From Ginsengibacter hankyongi (GTDB lineage: Bacteria > Bacteroidota > Bacteroidia > Chitinophagales > Chitinophagaceae): a DNA stretch of 64,000 bases. The stretch lies in NCBI RefSeq assembly GCF_008710285.1, contig NZ_VYQF01000003.1, positions 1 through 64,000 of the forward strand. Reading direction: 5' to 3'. The translations under genes and the position numbers were made by a program. How positions within the stretch are numbered: the stretch's first letter is position 1; the number at the start of each line of letters is the position of its first letter. The notes under the pieces are model-generated. The model saw nothing but the letters and a program-made list of their open reading frames with translations. It made no database searches and had not been told where the DNA came from. Below, in pieces: positions 8,345 to 16,683 of the stretch.

Positions 8345-9139
8345 TTAAAATTCTTTTTCCCGCAACCGTATGAACGAAACTCCCCACAATATTACCGGAA
8401 GGCCATAATTTATAAAATACCAAACGGGATCATGCACATTTTTAGGAAGTTCCACAGAACCTACTTCTTTCCCAACAAGGATAGCAACGTGCTGAAAGGG
8501 AAATGCATCGTCAATATTGCTAAACATAAACTCCGCAAATAGATAATTCAGTCCGTAAAGGCCGAAAAAAAGTATGCATACAGCCAGGGCTGTTTTTACC
8601 AACGCAACCTTATTAAAATAAAGTGATCCTATTAGCATCAATCCTGAAAAAATGAGGAACATCGGGTAAACTATTCGCGGCAGGCGGCCGGTAAACGAGA
8701 ATAGATAAACTGAATCATATCTTATCTTATAAAAGGGACCGTTAGGATCAAGACTATTATGATAAGCAGCTACAAAACCTGCGTCCATTACCCGGTAAAA
8801 TATCATAAAAATTAACGGGTATAAAATCGCGGCTATTAAAACGGCACAAAGCCATTTTTCCAAATTTGAAACAGGTAGCGTTAGATAAGATGAACCGCCT
8901 GCAGTGGAGCTAAAATAGTTAAACACAAACGAGGCCAATATAAAATCTCCTCCTACCAACCCCCAAAGAAACGAAACATTCTGTGCAACCTGGAAATTCA
9001 CAAAAGTTTTTATAATGTAGTACACTATCAATATAAAAAGAAAAATAAGACCGGTGAAACCGAACATTTGCATTGGTTTTTCCAGCAGCGTTTTTTTAAA
9101 CAGAAGTCCAAACCGTTTTAAGTTGAATGTGTTGCTCAT
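8345..9139 (-). CDS. ABC transporter membrane subunit
   Basis: Six or so hydrophobic segments are visible (FGFTGLIFLFILIVYYIIKT, WGLVGGDFILASFVFNYF, CAVLIAAILYPLIFMIFY, MFLIFSGLMLIGSLYF, LAVCILFFGLYGLNYLF, FINYGLPVILWGVSF), so this is an integral membrane protein without a recognised name, acting as the partner of the ATPase encoded just upstream. I chose the ATG at 9137-9139 (MSNTFNLKRFG) because it clears the end of the ATPase gene by 10 nt; an upstream ATG at 9173-9175 would overlap it by 26 nt. The transported substrate is unknown. Confidence 0.75.
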   Translation of the reverse strand: MSNTFNLKRFGLLFKKTLLEKPMQMFGFTGLIFLFILIVYYIIKTFVNFQVAQNVSFLWGLVGGDFILASFVFNYFSSTAGGSSYLTLPVSNLEKWLCAVLIAAILYPLIFMIFYRVMDAGFVAAYHNSLDPNGPFYKIRYDSVYLFSFTGRLPRIVYPMFLIFSGLMLIGSLYFNKVALVKTALAVCILFFGLYGLNYLFAEFMFSNIDDAFPFQHVAILVGKEVGSVELPKNVHDPVWYFINYGLPVILWGVSFIRLREKEF

Positions 9140-9149
9140 CAGGTCTTTT

Positions 9150-9986
9150 TTAATTTTTAAAAATTGCTTTTGCAATTACGGGTTTCTCCGTAATCGCGTT
9201 GAAGAGATGCTCCAGGTTTACCTTGCTGTCTTCAGCATTAATGTTTTTTGTAACGACAGAAAAACCTTTTAAAGACTCTTCACTATAGAGAATTTCATCC
9301 GGCCTTTCTAATTCGCTCACCGTCTTAAAACAAAGCCTTTCAGCTATATCACCAACTGAGGCATTTAGTAGCAACTCACCATTGTCAACTATAATTACCC
9401 GGTCAATTAAATTATCAAGATCGCGGATCTGGTGGGTAGAAATAAAAATTAGCTTGTCATCAGTAAATACAGACGCAATTAATTTTCGAAATTTTATTTT
9501 AGAAGGAATATCCAGGCCGTTAGTAGGTTCATCCAGCAACAACACCCTCGTATTACAGGCAAGCGCAAACGCAATTATAAATTTCTTTTGCTGCCCGAAG
9601 GATAGGGAATTGAGCTTGCCTTTATCTTTTACATCCAGCTGATCAAGATAGCTATAAAATTGCTCGTCATTAAATTTAGGATAGAAGGGTGCGAATAAAT
9701 TTTTATAACCGTCAATAGTCAAAGCAGGCACATATACCTCTTCCGGAATAAAGTAAATAGTTTCTAAAAAAGCAGGCCATCTTTTCTTTGGAATAAATCC
9801 GTTTACTGCGATATTGCCACTTGTGGGAAACAATAAGCCAATGAAATTTTTAAGCAGCGTCGATTTGCCGGCTCCATTTTTACCGAGCAGTCCATAGATG
9901 CTTCCTACTTCAAGTTTCAGGTTTAGATTTTTATAAAGCAGGTTTCTTTTTTTATAACCAAAAGACAGGTTTTGAATCTCTATCAT
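9150..9986 (-). CDS. ABC transporter ATP-binding protein
   Basis: A full ABC ATPase domain: Walker A in GLLGKNGAGKSTLLKN, signature LSFGQQKKF, Walker B LLLDEPTNGLD, and the H-loop ISTHQIRD. The start at 9986 (MIEIQNLSFGYKKRN) fits the family; an ATG at 10010 would add eight unsupported residues. The last 70 residues form the usual C-terminal extension of the CcmA/YtrB-type exporters. With the neighbouring membrane protein it forms an ABC-2-like transporter, under a GntR/YtrA regulator, so it probably exports a peptide, lipid or drug; the substrate cannot be read. Confidence 0.93.
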   Translation of the reverse strand: MIEIQNLSFGYKKRNLLYKNLNLKLEVGSIYGLLGKNGAGKSTLLKNFIGLLFPTSGNIAVNGFIPKKRWPAFLETIYFIPEEVYVPALTIDGYKNLFAPFYPKFNDEQFYSYLDQLDVKDKGKLNSLSFGQQKKFIIAFALACNTRVLLLDEPTNGLDIPSKIKFRKLIASVFTDDKLIFISTHQIRDLDNLIDRVIIVDNGELLLNASVGDIAERLCFKTVSELERPDEILYSEESLKGFSVVTKNINAEDSKVNLEHLFNAITEKPVIAKAIFKN

Positions 9987-10101: not shown

Positions 10102-11346
10102 TTAAAGCGCTGCCATCGCTCTCACCCTTTTCATGTTTTTTTCAATGGTGGTCTTATCAGCATGGGAACTTGTAAGGGTTGATGCTTTTTGATAATGCTG
10201 CAGCGCTTTTTCATTATCAACATCAGTGTAGAGATTTCCCAGTAAAGTATAATACAAATGATTGCCGGTAAGATTTAATTTTTCAGCTTCTGCTATTGCC
10301 TCCATTTTGCCGTTAGCTTTTGCAAGGGCAAATGTGCGGTTTAAGGCAGCGATGGGAGAATATTCTATTAGGAGTAATTGATTATAGAGTTGCAAAATGT
10401 TTTCCCACTTTTGCCCGGTATCTTCTTTGTGCGTATGCCAATAAGCAATGGCCGCTTCCAGGTGATACTTTGATAATTCATCACCTTTTGATGAGAGGTT
10501 TAAATAATATTCGCCTCTTTCAACCAGTTCTTTATTCCACAGGTTGGTGTCCTGGTCTTCATATAAAATATTGTCGCCATCTTCGTTTATCCTTGCCTCA
10601 AAGCGGGATGAATGAAAACACATTAATGAGAAGAGCGCATTTACAGCAGGCTTGTTGGTATGGTCATTTTCAATAAGTAAATAAGTTAGTCTCATCGCCT
10701 CAAGGCACAGGTCTTTTCGCAGACTCACATCCTGGTTTGAGGAGTAATACCCTTCATTAAAAAGCAGGTACAACGTTAGTAACACGGCCGGCAGCCGTTC
10801 GTCTATTTCATGTAAACCCGGTTGTTCTATTTTAATTTTTGCACTTCTTAGTTTTTCTTTGCCGCGTTGCAGCCTTTTATAAATTACCTCTTTGTTGGTT
10901 AAAAAAGCGTTGGCAATTTCCACTGCACCAAAGCCACAAAGTAGGTTTAAGGCCAATCCAATCTGCACTTCTGCGGGATTACAAGGATTACAAACTGCAA
11001 ATATCATTGCCAGCTGGCTGTCGTTAATATTTTTAGTTGATAGATCAATTTCTATTTCATGAAATGTTGGTGCAGCATATTTTATTTCTTTGGAAATCTT
11101 TTGAGTAAAAATTGAATGATGTTTCAAATAATCTTTCGTCTTATTTTTTGCAACGGTATAAAGCCATGCTGTTGGGTTTTCAGGCAACCCTTTCAGTCCC
11201 CACAATTCAGAAGCTGAAAGAAAAGTATCGCTTACAATATCTTCTGCAATTTCAATGTGCTCAATGCCAAATAATTTATAAAGCACAGAAACGATTTTCC
11301 TGTACTCTGTTCTGAATAAATGAGGTATCAGTTCTGTTTGTTTCAT
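10102..11346 (-). CDS. ECF RNA polymerase sigma factor, ECF42-like, with C-terminal TPR region
   Basis: A 414-residue sigma factor. Residues 10-75 hold the sigma-2 domain (FRTEYRKIVSVLYKLFGIEH, and EIAEDIVSDTFLSASELWGLKG), residues 115-175 sigma-4 with the HTH (NAFLTNKEVIYKRLQRGKEKLR), and the remaining 230 residues are helical with TPR-like units (YYTLLGNLYTDVDNEKALQHYQKAS). This long C-terminal extension is the hallmark of the ECF42 group, whose members lack an anti-sigma factor and are encoded beside DGPF-domain genes. Exactly that gene lies upstream at 11402. It probably switches on the two following genes through the boxes at 11764 and 12305; no such box precedes its own start. Confidence 0.9.
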   Translation of the reverse strand: MKQTELIPHLFRTEYRKIVSVLYKLFGIEHIEIAEDIVSDTFLSASELWGLKGLPENPTAWLYTVAKNKTKDYLKHHSIFTQKISKEIKYAAPTFHEIEIDLSTKNINDSQLAMIFAVCNPCNPAEVQIGLALNLLCGFGAVEIANAFLTNKEVIYKRLQRGKEKLRSAKIKIEQPGLHEIDERLPAVLLTLYLLFNEGYYSSNQDVSLRKDLCLEAMRLTYLLIENDHTNKPAVNALFSLMCFHSSRFEARINEDGDNILYEDQDTNLWNKELVERGEYYLNLSSKGDELSKYHLEAAIAYWHTHKEDTGQKWENILQLYNQLLLIEYSPIAALNRTFALAKANGKMEAIAEAEKLNLTGNHLYYTLLGNLYTDVDNEKALQHYQKASTLTSSHADKTTIEKNMKRVRAMAAL

Positions 11347-11401
11347 AAAAATAAATGCCCTTGCAAAAGTACAAAGGCATTTAGCTTTTCAGGGTACATA
11401 A

Positions 11402-11737
11402 TTACATTGCGAGAATCTCTCTCACTTCTACACTTCCACCGGTTGTAAGCCCGGGACATCCTTTTGCCAACTCTGCGGCTTCTTCAAGAGAATTTGCTTT
11501 TACGATGCTGTAGCCTCCAATGGATTCTTTAATGTCTGAATATGGGCCGTCGGTAATAATGTTGCCGGGCTTTACAACTTTACCTGAAGGAAAAAGGCGG
11601 TTTCCACGGTCTCCTAATTTGTTTTGAGCTGCAATGCCGCCTATCCAGTCCATCCAGCGTTTGGTCATCGCCTGCATTTCATCGGGTGAAGCATCTGGTA
11701 TGCCGTTGGCCCTGAATACGAATAAGAAATCTTTCAT
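11402..11737 (-). CDS. DGPF/YciI-like domain protein
   Basis: A 111-residue protein of the YciI-related DGPF family. The signature ITDGPYSDIKESIGGYSIV is intact, preceded by RLFPSGKVVKPGN and by KDFLFVFRANG at the N-terminus. These small ferredoxin-like folds may have peroxidase or isomerase-type activity; in ECF42 clusters they are the standard target of the sigma factor. The start at 11737 is 27 nt after the -10-like box on the minus strand at 11764-11794. The sigma gene follows 55 nt downstream, without the box of its own, so read-through from this promoter could feed it. Confidence 0.92.
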   Translation of the reverse strand: MKDFLFVFRANGIPDASPDEMQAMTKRWMDWIGGIAAQNKLGDRGNRLFPSGKVVKPGNIITDGPYSDIKESIGGYSIVKANSLEEAAELAKGCPGLTTGGSVEVREILAM

Positions 11738-11763
11738 TTTGTTTATGTTTTAATGGTTAAAAA

Positions 11764-11794
11764 TAATAACGATTTTGTTTTGTGAATTGGACAA
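11764..11794 (-). promoter_or_regulatory. Candidate ECF42 promoter box, upstream of the DGPF gene
   Basis: On the minus strand TTGTCCAATTC (11794-11784), an 11-nt spacer, then TCGTTATTA (11772-11764), ending 27 nt before the ATG at 11737. The same two blocks with the same 11-nt gap occur at 12305-12335. Elsewhere in the window I saw no matching pair. Confidence 0.7.
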
Positions 11795-11817
11795 TTGTTT
11801 CTAGATAACCAAAACAA

Positions 11818-12279
11818 TTAATTAAATTGACCAACCACGTACGTTCCCACCGGCGGCCGAAAAGCAATATTGATGCGGTTGTAAGTATTGATGGTCGTAA
11901 CCGCAAGCGTAAGATCAATTAATTCCTGTTCAGAAAATTGTTTTCTTGCTGTTGCAAACACTTCATCGGGAATATTGCCATTGGTAATTTTTGTTACAGC
12001 CTCTGCCCAGTCAAGCGCCGCAAGTTCATGATCGCTATAAAAAGGCGCTTCGCGCCAGGCATTCAAAGTATGAAGGCGCTGTTCGGTTTCGCCCGCGGCC
12101 CGCAAATCTTTTGAGTGCATATCTAAGCAAAAAGCACAACCATTTATTTGAGACACTCTGAAATAAACCAGATCTAAAAGCGATTTGCCGAGTTGCGATT
12201 TCGCTAAGTAACCTCCGACAGGATACAATGTTTTCAAGGCATCTTTTCCATTTTCTAAAAAATTAATTCTTGTTTCCAT
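11818..12279 (-). CDS. AhpD-like carboxymuconolactone decarboxylase family protein
   Basis: A 153-residue alkylhydroperoxidase-like protein. The redox motif is CAFCLDMHSKDLRAAGE, where the CxxC followed by a His matches the AhpD core; the surrounding ALDWAEAVTKITNGNIPDEV and TINTYNRINIAF regions also belong to this family. It probably detoxifies peroxides or handles a reactive compound, using a thiol cycle. It is encoded upstream of the DGPF gene on the same strand with its own copy of the promoter box (12305-12335), so it is likely part of the ECF42 response. Confidence 0.92.
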   Translation of the reverse strand: METRINFLENGKDALKTLYPVGGYLAKSQLGKSLLDLVYFRVSQINGCAFCLDMHSKDLRAAGETEQRLHTLNAWREAPFYSDHELAALDWAEAVTKITNGNIPDEVFATARKQFSEQELIDLTLAVTTINTYNRINIAFRPPVGTYVVGQFN

Positions 12280-12304
12280 TCTAATTGTTTTTGTGATTAA
12301 AAAC

Positions 12305-12335
12305 TAATAACGACTGAGTTTTTAGAATTGGACAA
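12305..12335 (-). promoter_or_regulatory. Candidate ECF42 promoter box, upstream of the AhpD-like gene
   Basis: On the minus strand TTGTCCAATTC (12335-12325), 11-nt spacer, TCGTTATTA (12313-12305), ending 26 nt before the ATG at 12279. It matches the box before the DGPF gene at all 20 core positions, while the spacers are different in sequence. Confidence 0.7.
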
Positions 12336-12340
12336 GAGTC

Positions 12341-12396
12341 GTGAATGGTGAGGCGTCAATGGTGAATGGTGAAGCGTCAATGGGGAATGGGGAATG
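12341..12396 (+). repeat. Short direct repeat
   Basis: GTGAATGGTGAGGCGTCAAT is repeated immediately as GTGAATGGTGAAGCGTCAAT and then degrades (GGGGAATGGGGAATG). It is non-coding, between the AhpD-like gene and the b561 fusion gene. It resembles low-complexity direct repeats and could be slippage-prone. Confidence 0.6.
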
Positions 12397-12544
12397 CAAA
12401 GATGCATCCGTACTCGTGAATTTTTGTTTGCAGGGTAAGACTTATGAAAGGAAGGAAGACGAATGGTTGCGCATGCTCACAGCTGCAAGTTGTCGTTTGC
12501 AATTGTAATCATCATCCCGCTTTAATCGATTATCTTTATTAGCA

Positions 12545-14215: not shown

Positions 14216-14470
14216 TGTCGGCATCAAAAGAACTTTAGCGAAGACACAACCTGGTAGCTAAAAGATAAAAGTAATATGGATAAAACTCCCTTCTCAGCAA
14301 CCTCTCCCTTTAGGCGACATTGCATACATAACGGTTTGTTTTATTTTTGAAAATGGCGATTCAGCAAACTATTCTACACAATAGTGGTCTTTGCTTTATA
14401 ACATCCTTCGTACGAGAAAAAATTATAAATTTAGTTTGATACAATCATAGAAATAGGAAGCTTGCGTAAG

Positions 14471-15298
14471 ATGCAAATACAATTTCGTCATATTGAACCT
14501 CATTTTTTGTTGAAAAATTACATTGAAAAAATGTGGTTTTTTGAAAGCAGCGGGAAAATGCCTGTTGATGATATGAAACTGGTGGTGCCGAACGGAAATA
14601 TTAAACTAACGGTTTCTTATCAAAATGGAATTGTTGCGGCAGTGAATGGAAAAACATTTGCTTCAAAAGAACATGATATTACTTTAACGGGTTTGGTTGA
14701 TGTGCCTGTTATTTTAGACGTTGATGAAGACGTTGCCACGGGAACCATCGGCATTGAATTTAATCCCCAGGGAGCCTATCGCTTTTTCCATTTCACACTG
14801 AATGATATTCAAAATCAGATTTATCCTTTGAGTGACGTGTTGGGAAACCTGGGAAAACAATTAACAGAACAAATTAATAACACAACATCTACGCAAGAAA
14901 AAATAGTGGCATTGCAACAATTCTTACTCAAACAACTTTCGTTGCACAATGAAGATTTGATTTTTGAGTTTTGCATAGAAAAAATAATCGCTTCAAAAGG
15001 AAGAATAACCGTTAAAGAATTAGAAAAGAAAACAGGTTATAGCAGCCGCTGGCTTAATATGAAGTTCAATGATAAATTAGGTGTAAGTCCCAAAAATTTA
15101 TCTTCAATTATTCGTTTCAAACAATATTATCAGGCATTTATTAAGGGCAATGAAAGATCATTTTTCAGGAATGATTTTTACGAGTTGTATTACGACCAAT
15201 CTCATTTTATAAAAGACTTCAAACGCTTTACCGGGTTACCGCCTACAAAGTATGAAAAGCAACTAAACAACTTCGGTAAAAGTTATTACAAAGAGTAA
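14471..15298 (+). CDS. AraC-family transcriptional regulator
   Basis: A 275-residue regulator with the start at the ATG at 14471 (a TTG at 14462 would extend it by three residues). The first 170 residues are an all-beta sensing region (IEPHFLLKNYIEKMWFFESS, MKLVVPNGNIKLTVSY, TGTIGIEFNPQGAYRFFHF) with the DUF6597 style of related regulators. The C-terminal 100 residues are the AraC double HTH (ITVKELEKKTGYSSRWLNMK; SPKNLSSIIRFKQYYQAF; YDQSHFIKDFKRFTGLPPTKY). It lies 71 nt before the SRPBCC gene, which it probably regulates. Confidence 0.9.
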   Translation: MQIQFRHIEPHFLLKNYIEKMWFFESSGKMPVDDMKLVVPNGNIKLTVSYQNGIVAAVNGKTFASKEHDITLTGLVDVPVILDVDEDVATGTIGIEFNPQGAYRFFHFTLNDIQNQIYPLSDVLGNLGKQLTEQINNTTSTQEKIVALQQFLLKQLSLHNEDLIFEFCIEKIIASKGRITVKELEKKTGYSSRWLNMKFNDKLGVSPKNLSSIIRFKQYYQAFIKGNERSFFRNDFYELYYDQSHFIKDFKRFTGLPPTKYEKQLNNFGKSYYKE

Positions 15299-15369
15299 CA
15301 CTTCCGATTTTTACAATATCACGTTGATTGTTTTATCTTTTTTTGTTTTAAAATTAAAAATAAAGCAAG

Positions 15370-16683
15370 ATGAAAAATAAAGATTATAAAAAAGCAAATT
15401 ATTCAGTAGCAATTGAATTTGCAGAATCTCCGAATGATGTTTTTAATCATGTCATTAATCTTTCAAAATGGTGGCCTGAAGAATTTGAAGGAGAAAGCAT
15501 CAAACTTAATACTGAGTTTATATTTAAAACAGGAGATGGGCATTATTCAAAAAATAAAGTGGTTGAATTTGTGCCAAATAAAAAAATTGTATGGCTTACA
15601 ATTGAAAGCATACGTAAAACAGACAATTTTGATCGGACAGGAACAAAAATGATTTTTGAACTAACTCCTAATGGCAGTAACACTTTGCTCAAATTTACTT
15701 ATGACGGTGTTGTTCTTGAAGATGAATCTGACAGATTAGTGGAGATATGCGATTTTGTGATTAAGGAGAAGCTATACAACTTGATAGAAAGTTTCACCGC
15801 AACTATAGAAGTAGCAAAAACACCGCAAGATGTTTTTAATTGTATCAATGATGTTACAAAATGGTGGAGCAAAGATTTTGAAGGCAATAGTACAAAACTG
15901 AATGATGAATTTATCATTAACCATCCTAAGCAGCATTATTCAAAACAAAAACTGGTTGAAGTTATTCCTGGTAAAAAAGTCGTTTGGCTTGTTACAGAAA
16001 GCAAACTGGATTGGCTTAAAAACAATACGGAAGAATGGACAAACACAAAGATGATTTTTGAGATAAGCGCGAGTGGCGATAAAACTGTTCTTGATTTTAC
16101 ACACGAAGGACTTACTCCTGAAAAAGAATGTTATGCGATGTGTGAGAAAGGCTGGAGCATTATTATTAAAGATTGGTTATTTCACTTTATAACAGTGGGT
16201 ACACCTTCAAAAGAAATGGCTAAAGCAGCAGAGGTAAGAAACCAGCTTCTTGAAAATAAAACTAAAATGGAAAAGAAAGATTTTCATAGAGCAATTACGG
16301 TAAATGCTTCAACTGAAGAAGCAATGAAAAAAATCAGCCAAATAAATCTTTGGTGGAGAAAAGACTTTTTAGGCAATGCTGAGAAATTGAATGATAAATT
16401 TACCGTTCCGTTTGGAGAACCTTCTTTTGTCGATTTTATCATAAGCGAATTTGTGCCCGGTAAAAAAGTGGTTTGGAAAGTTACCGATTGTTATTTGCCC
16501 TGGTTCCAGGATAAAAAAGAATGGAATAATACTGAAGTTGTTTTCCAGCTTTCAGAAGAGAATGATACAACTAAAATTGATTTTACCCATATTGGCCTTG
16601 TGCCTGAAGTGGAATGTTACGAGGTTTGTGAGAAAGGATGGAATGGTCATATCGACACGTTAGTGAAATTCATCAATGAGTGA
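15370..16683 (+). CDS. Triple SRPBCC (AHSA1-like) domain protein
   Basis: A 437-residue protein built from three copies of one SRPBCC/START-like fold of about 140 residues: residues 10-140, 145-280 and 300-437. Each copy contains a first beta strand and helix (AESPNDVFNHVINLSKWW; AKTPQDVFNCINDVTKWW; NASTEEAMKKISQINLWW), then a FxG or FLG loop, VPNKKIVWL / IPGKKVVWL / VPGKKVVWK, and (F)T.(E)G L P E..C Y. Single-copy relatives are usually about 150 residues. The fold binds hydrophobic ligands or acts as a small lyase. It is encoded right after an AraC regulator on the same strand. Confidence 0.88.
   Translation: MKNKDYKKANYSVAIEFAESPNDVFNHVINLSKWWPEEFEGESIKLNTEFIFKTGDGHYSKNKVVEFVPNKKIVWLTIESIRKTDNFDRTGTKMIFELTPNGSNTLLKFTYDGVVLEDESDRLVEICDFVIKEKLYNLIESFTATIEVAKTPQDVFNCINDVTKWWSKDFEGNSTKLNDEFIINHPKQHYSKQKLVEVIPGKKVVWLVTESKLDWLKNNTEEWTNTKMIFEISASGDKTVLDFTHEGLTPEKECYAMCEKGWSIIIKDWLFHFITVGTPSKEMAKAAEVRNQLLENKTKMEKKDFHRAITVNASTEEAMKKISQINLWWRKDFLGNAEKLNDKFTVPFGEPSFVDFIISEFVPGKKVVWKVTDCYLPWFQDKKEWNNTEVVFQLSEENDTTKIDFTHIGLVPEVECYEVCEKGWNGHIDTLVKFINE

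Follow-up and report, generated by a model that had tools for sequence, protein, structure and literature searches.

A predicted local ECF42 sigma factor switch with two matching promoter boxes in Ginsengibacter hankyongi

We believe that an ECF42-type sigma gene in the window, by which we mean the whole 64,000-nucleotide stretch analysed here, probably forms a local switch with two promoter boxes and two adjacent targets, an AhpD-like gene and a YCII/DGPF gene, a reading drawn from the DNA sequence to which we give a probability of roughly 0.85. All of its parts lie on the minus strand, where the first box (12305-12335) precedes the AhpD-like gene (11818-12279; CMD family, 153 aa) and the second box (11764-11794) precedes the YCII/DGPF gene (11402-11737; 111 aa), followed by a terminator-like hairpin with a T-tract (11347-11383) and the sigma gene itself (10102-11346; 414 aa). 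Domain searches match the AhpD-like protein to the CMD/AhpD core, the YCII protein, encoded directly upstream of the sigma gene, to PF03795, and the sigma factor to Sigma70_r2 (region 2) and DUF6596. A profile of the sigma family, positions 312-397, matches consensus TPR proteins (E 1.8e-5), and the description of the protein in the first-pass annotation, as an ECF42 factor with a long TPR tail, is thus borne out. Such membership is in itself ordinary; the TPR tail, the YCII neighbour and TGTC/CGTC promoters are already known from the passages available of PMC8999054 and PMC6180224. In the AhpD-like proteins that neighbour ECF42 genes, Cys48 and Cys51 are invariant (40/40) and His55 is nearly so (39/40). 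Neighbours of the sigma locus comprise AhpD, YCII, an oxidoreductase, an ABC ATPase and a GntR regulator, and the neighbour at 8345-9175 matched no Pfam family. The window also encodes, at 14462-16683 of the plus strand, a DUF6597/AraC-like regulator adjoining a protein with three AHSA1 stretches.

The boxes combine a TGTC-type -35 with a CGT-type -10, as in ECF42 promoters, and read TTGTCC at -35 and CGTTA at -10, with 18 nt separating TGTC from CGT. Allowing up to three mismatches, TTGTCCAATTC-N11-TCGTTATTA matches the window exactly twice, both times perfectly and on the minus strand, so that the identity of all 20 core letters before the AhpD-like and DGPF genes, noted at the outset, was recovered by the scan, while the two spacers (ACAAAACAAAA and TAAAAACTCAG) are unlike, again as first described. 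A chance origin had been called unlikely, and the numbers agree: 0.03 occurrences of the pair are expected in the window, and none of 100 shuffles held two or more. The distances of 26 (AhpD) and 27 (YCII) given earlier equal the coordinate differences from box end to start codon, leaving 25 and 26 nt between. Short direct repeats (CCATTGACGC.TCACCATTCAC and similar) occupy 12340-12410 of the minus strand, immediately upstream of the AhpD box. Searching the complete genome (5,505,520 bases) revealed no scatter of the pair: at up to two mismatches the sole matches are the two window boxes, both perfect, and at three mismatches there is one further match, against two for the reversed control. 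A looser box core with one mismatch allowed gave 7 matches genome-wide versus 13 for the reversed control, and its perfect matches were again the two window boxes only. A wider regulon in this genome was considered and set aside, the looser patterns being no commoner than the reversed control, and from sequence the regulon of the window sigma looks local.

The same kind of box recurs beside related sigma genes. ECF42 sigma factors are widespread, with DUF6596 present in 76 of 147 genomes of the organism's family and in 39 of 198 genomes of a phylum sample; of the DUF6596 places found in the 147 family genomes, we fetched a part. When word pairs were counted, without using the box, in up to 160 nt before 93 YCII/AhpD genes from 81 loci including the window, the top pairs were GTCC-N17-TCGT and TGTC-N18-TCGT (27/93 each), and the best pair in three shuffles of these regions reached 7-8. 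Boxes could be called at 65 of 80 loci, and the Bacteroidota ECF42 promoter consensus is TGTCC-N18-[CT][GA]T[TC]A. In most loci 19 nt separate TGTC from the -10. An 18-nt spacer occurs in 22 of 156 sigma/box pairs, which are 22 of the 25 leaves of the window's clade (support 0.926), not counting an 18-nt box under the call threshold at L136. The window is thus a member of a clade with a spacer 1 nt shorter than in most ECF42 promoters, and spacer length follows the sigma tree. Residue 70 was tried as a reader of the spacer and rejected, T70 occurring with both lengths (22 at 18 nt, 25 at 19 nt). The alignment columns most associated with the spacer and with a variable -35 base include region 4 residues (134-160) as well as others elsewhere, an association that relatedness alone could produce.

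What ties the adjacent sigma to the box is covariation between protein and DNA. In 64 sigma/box pairs, the first -10 base can be told from residue 72 without exception, C standing with Asp or Tyr (42 pairs) and T with Asn or Thr (22 pairs), and residue 68 tracks the second base, Asn going with G in 58/58 and Gln with A in 5/6; these counts come from a box caller that favoured C/T and G/A in the -10, and the caller used on held-out loci left both bases unscored. Both residues, numbered as in the window sigma, lie in region 2.4. The rule was fixed on these 64 loci and written before further loci were fetched, with L086 (split sigma) and L082 (box at sigma) dropped from the training set. It was right in 20 of 21 loci in a first held-out set (40 loci, 17 without a box call and 2 with an unreadable residue), in 23 of 24 in a second (40 loci, 15 and 1, respectively) and in 48 of 48 in a third (78 loci, 26 and 4), the last after removal of duplicates L285 and L296; from 44 places in the phylum sample, G000 (two places), G111 (already used) and G290 had been dropped. 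In a joint alignment the rule held for 90 of 93 held-out loci, with one of the three misses due to a residue that could not be read, and label shuffles reached at most 61 of 93.

Among representatives at less than 80% identity the rule is true in 129 of 133. A tree of 156 pairs, from which sigma fragments below 350 aa were dropped, has 10 inferred changes in the first -10 base and nine at residue 72; of the 10 base changes, 8 share a branch, out of 310, with a change at residue 72. The rule is broken at L130 (R68, Y72, box ACT) and L199 (N68, N72, box TAT); L087 is an exception in the tree analysis, though a different site at this locus does have CGT. The window sigma carries N68 and D72, and D72, together with N68 one helix turn earlier, would read the first two -10 bases (C, G). 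In an alignment to E. coli sigma-E, the two residues fall on two Asn of region 2, which we take to be N80 and N84, presumably with a role in -10 contact. Outside Bacteroidota we scanned 10 plasmid ECF42 loci, requiring the second and third -10 bases to be G and T. Residue 72 was readable in nine and was Asp in all nine. CGT boxes precede YCII in four loci, two of which have one before another gene as well; one locus has AGT, another a distant GGT, and the remaining four no box. Support for the residue rule outside Bacteroidota is weak because no plasmid locus has Asn. On the Phyllobacterium (L324) and Roseibium (L325) plasmids, one TGTCG...CGTC box stands ahead of YCII and another ahead of an SRPBCC gene that follows the sigma gene, and two boxes per locus are therefore known outside Bacteroidota too.

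The AhpD-like gene, proposed earlier as a further regulon member, gains support from its relatives. Of 239 loci, some of which were picked for closeness to the window sigma, 39 have AhpD ahead of YCII and the sigma gene, and a box stands before AhpD in 36 of these 39: at AhpD only in 32, at both genes in four (the window, L040, L041 and L080) and at neither in three. In the sigma tree the window's clade groups with loci that combine Asp72 with a YCII gene and lack AhpD, next to loci where Asn72 and AhpD occur together. The clade's own AhpD boxes carry C, in agreement with their own sigma, and the AhpD tree, consulted on how AhpD came into this lineage, has weak nodes. At up to two mismatches, the box was found in 3 of 59 genomes, the window's own included, with two copies in each, and the reversed control gave a single match in each of two other genomes. 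L040 and L041, two relatives of the same genus, have the same AhpD-YCII-sigma gene order and retain all four boxes, each with one mismatch and an altered spacer. The L040 sigma is 84% identical to that of the window, and the L041 sigma gene is truncated by a contig end.

A second ECF42 gene of the genome (L042, G000:C23:154320-154628) lies on the contig that carries the first, at a distance of about 140 kb, and likewise has a YCII gene and a hairpin beside it. It has Asn72 and a box of the form TGTCCAATT...TGTTATT with a 19-nt spacer. Searching the genome for this box gave one site without mismatches and six with two, and 148 in total versus 161 for the reversed control; the perfect boxes of each ECF42 are confined to its own locus. 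From sequence, both loci may be read as local switches, and the pairing of D72 with C as opposed to N72 with T, together with the spacer one base shorter, should separate the window switch from the second ECF42. For Mycobacterium tuberculosis sigma-H, the passages available of PMC6411747 describe a sharp reduction of activity with non-optimal spacers, and a difference of one base can therefore matter.

Two other accounts of the boxes deserve consideration. Recent copying of a promoter segment might have made them alike, leaving one copy unused, an account encouraged by the rarity of the double box, present in just 4 of the 39 AhpD-YCII-sigma loci, and by the likeness of the A/T-rich stretches downstream of both boxes. 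We regard it as very unlikely nonetheless: three species retain both boxes although every spacer has changed, and relatives of the same clade with YCII alone retain the YCII box. That the boxes are read by some other sigma, for example the second ECF42, the adjacent factor not being their partner, seems to us very improbable. The -35 part TGTCCAATT is identical at both ECF42 loci of the genome, and cross-talk is therefore possible, but residue 72, the first -10 base and the spacer all differ between the two in obedience to the rule, and within the window's clade the box adjoins relatives of this same sigma.

How the sigma gene is supplied is a separate matter. As the first-pass annotation stated, it lacks the box: none was found in the 110 nt preceding its start, and a box at the sigma gene, tried as a general feature, was rejected with two cases in 239 loci, both weak (L082 and L142). 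The 55-nt gap before the gene holds a hairpin of 14 pairs (11383-11352), ending 5 nt before the ATG, and then TTTTT (11351-11347), which abuts it; allowing up to two mismatches, the core of the hairpin has a single occurrence in the genome. Among the 239 loci, hairpins were counted in the 106 whose sigma start is certain and lies at least 20 nt from YCII/AhpD. Set aside were 52 with an uncertain start, 26 in which no YCII or AhpD gene ends within 200 nt, and 55 whose gap is below 20 nt, where translational coupling is likely. By our own scoring, 60 of the 106 gaps have a hairpin with T-tract and 52 of the 106 have it ending within 12 nt of the ATG, compared with 1 of 48 and 0 of 48 in gaps between target genes, and 5 of 94 and 0 of 94 in same-strand gaps taken from the window and a further 0.4 Mb of its genome. 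In the first 53 sigma gaps there are 29 hairpins, against 0.38 on average and 2 at most in their shuffles. With hairpins not selected for, the folding z-score is below -2 in 55 of 59 gaps of 38-66 nt (median -4.91); among control gaps (38-90 nt, median 0.03) this is so in 5 of 41. Loci with no hairpin exist, for example L239 and L265. Paired letters covary in the aligned hairpins (25/52), as for a terminator, which in a set chosen for pairing serves as illustration only.

The earlier proposal that the sigma gene is fed by read-through stands in part: its own box is indeed absent, but a terminator-like hairpin 5 nt before the ATG opposes simple read-through, which may be only partial, or another sigma promoter may exist. 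That the predicted terminator limits sigma synthesis as a brake is a suggestion that we rate a little short of even odds. A rival reading holds that the hairpin merely ends the target transcript and that sigma comes from its own housekeeping promoter, whose -7 (TAnnTTTG) would lie in the loop, with a short leader free of the hairpin; we consider this possible but rather doubtful. The window loop does contain TACTTTTG (11371-11364), TAnnTTT[AG] occurs in 22 of 52 sigma-gap hairpins versus 0 of 29 other gene-end hairpins of the window's genome, and the -7 consensus of Flavobacterium psychrophilum is TAnnTTTG according to the passages available of PMC9723704. Yet the full TAnnTTTG is found in only 8 of the 52, A freely substitutes for G, which preserves a stem pair but not the promoter consensus, many hairpins lack the TAnnTTT[AG] pattern altogether, and the 52 hairpin loci share descent. 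A TTG upstream stands at no constant distance, and a housekeeping -33 element sought ahead of the loop was rejected for want of a constant offset. A brake by termination and a promoter of the sigma gene's own may also coexist.

Returning to the local switch as we prefer to read it, the sigma factor would bring RNA polymerase to both boxes (TGTCC as the -35, CGTTA as the -10) and so drive transcription of the AhpD-like and YCII genes. Most target transcripts would then end at the hairpin, so that sigma would be produced only in small amounts, either through read-through or from a weak promoter belonging to its own gene. Control of the sigma probably acts through the TPR tail, perhaps by way of the YCII or AhpD protein. 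We infer sigma binding, transcription starts, termination, the brake and tail control in this scheme from the computed patterns, which comprise the Bacteroidota ECF42 box, the residue-base covariation and the conservation of box and hairpin. A broader view, which we put forward tentatively and would not bet on, makes Bacteroidota ECF42 loci insulated switches, separated by a two-letter code at residues 68 and 72 and a one-base spacer difference, each with a sigma throttled by a terminator whose T-tract reaches its start codon. The target operon would in this way restrain its own activator, and anti-termination or a ribosome could release the brake when the switch has to fire.

The data provide an ECF42 promoter model for Bacteroidota and a rule by which the protein sequence foretells how the -10 begins, and regulons and orthogonal sigma/promoter pairs can therefore be selected from sequence. 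AhpD-like redox proteins recurring as first targets hint at peroxide or electrophile stress signals, and the hairpin before the sigma gene offers an entry to how a sigma that may lack an anti-sigma factor stays low. Our literature search covered titles, abstract openings and passages, with few subscription papers included; within that scope we found nothing on a Bacteroidota ECF42 promoter, nothing on ECF42 residues 68/72, and no terminator before ECF42 sigma genes.

Among known systems, the ECF42 group, with Streptomyces venezuelae Sven_0747, Pseudomonas putida ECF-10 and Sinorhizobium meliloti RpoE10, is the closest, and the window likewise has the TPR tail and the YCII neighbour. In the passages available of PMC8999054, the group has a TPR-rich C-terminal extension and a YCII neighbour, control is proposed to run through the tail rather than an anti-sigma factor, and the interaction partner is still to be identified. 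The initial statement that ECF42 factors control DGPF genes through a TGTC-type -35 is favoured by the box before YCII/AhpD genes beside relatives and by the covariation, but the overexpressed S. meliloti ECF42 sigma did not induce the YCII gene (PMC6180224, in the part available). That source gives TGTC at -35 and CGTC at -10 for RpoE10, two of whose promoters have these elements 19 nt apart as counted here from its table text, whereas the window has C rather than G after TGTC, CGTTA at -10 and a spacer of 18. According to the passages available of PMC8103513, Todor et al. 2020 linked bases of the -10 and -35 with ECF residues in domains 2 and 4 of the sigma factor, a general code that rests on autoregulated ECFs, in contrast to the ECF42 loci here and their near lack of a box at the sigma gene. 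Motif SM6 of Flavobacterium psychrophilum is an ECF-type promoter from the same phylum, also with CGT in the -10, but in the available passages (PMC9723704) its associations are with genes of type IX secretion and with an ECF/anti-sigma pair rather than with YCII, AhpD or ECF42. Compared with known ECF42 systems, then, the window differs in having AhpD as a predicted second target with a box of its own, and in the hairpin that lies between the targets and the sigma gene.
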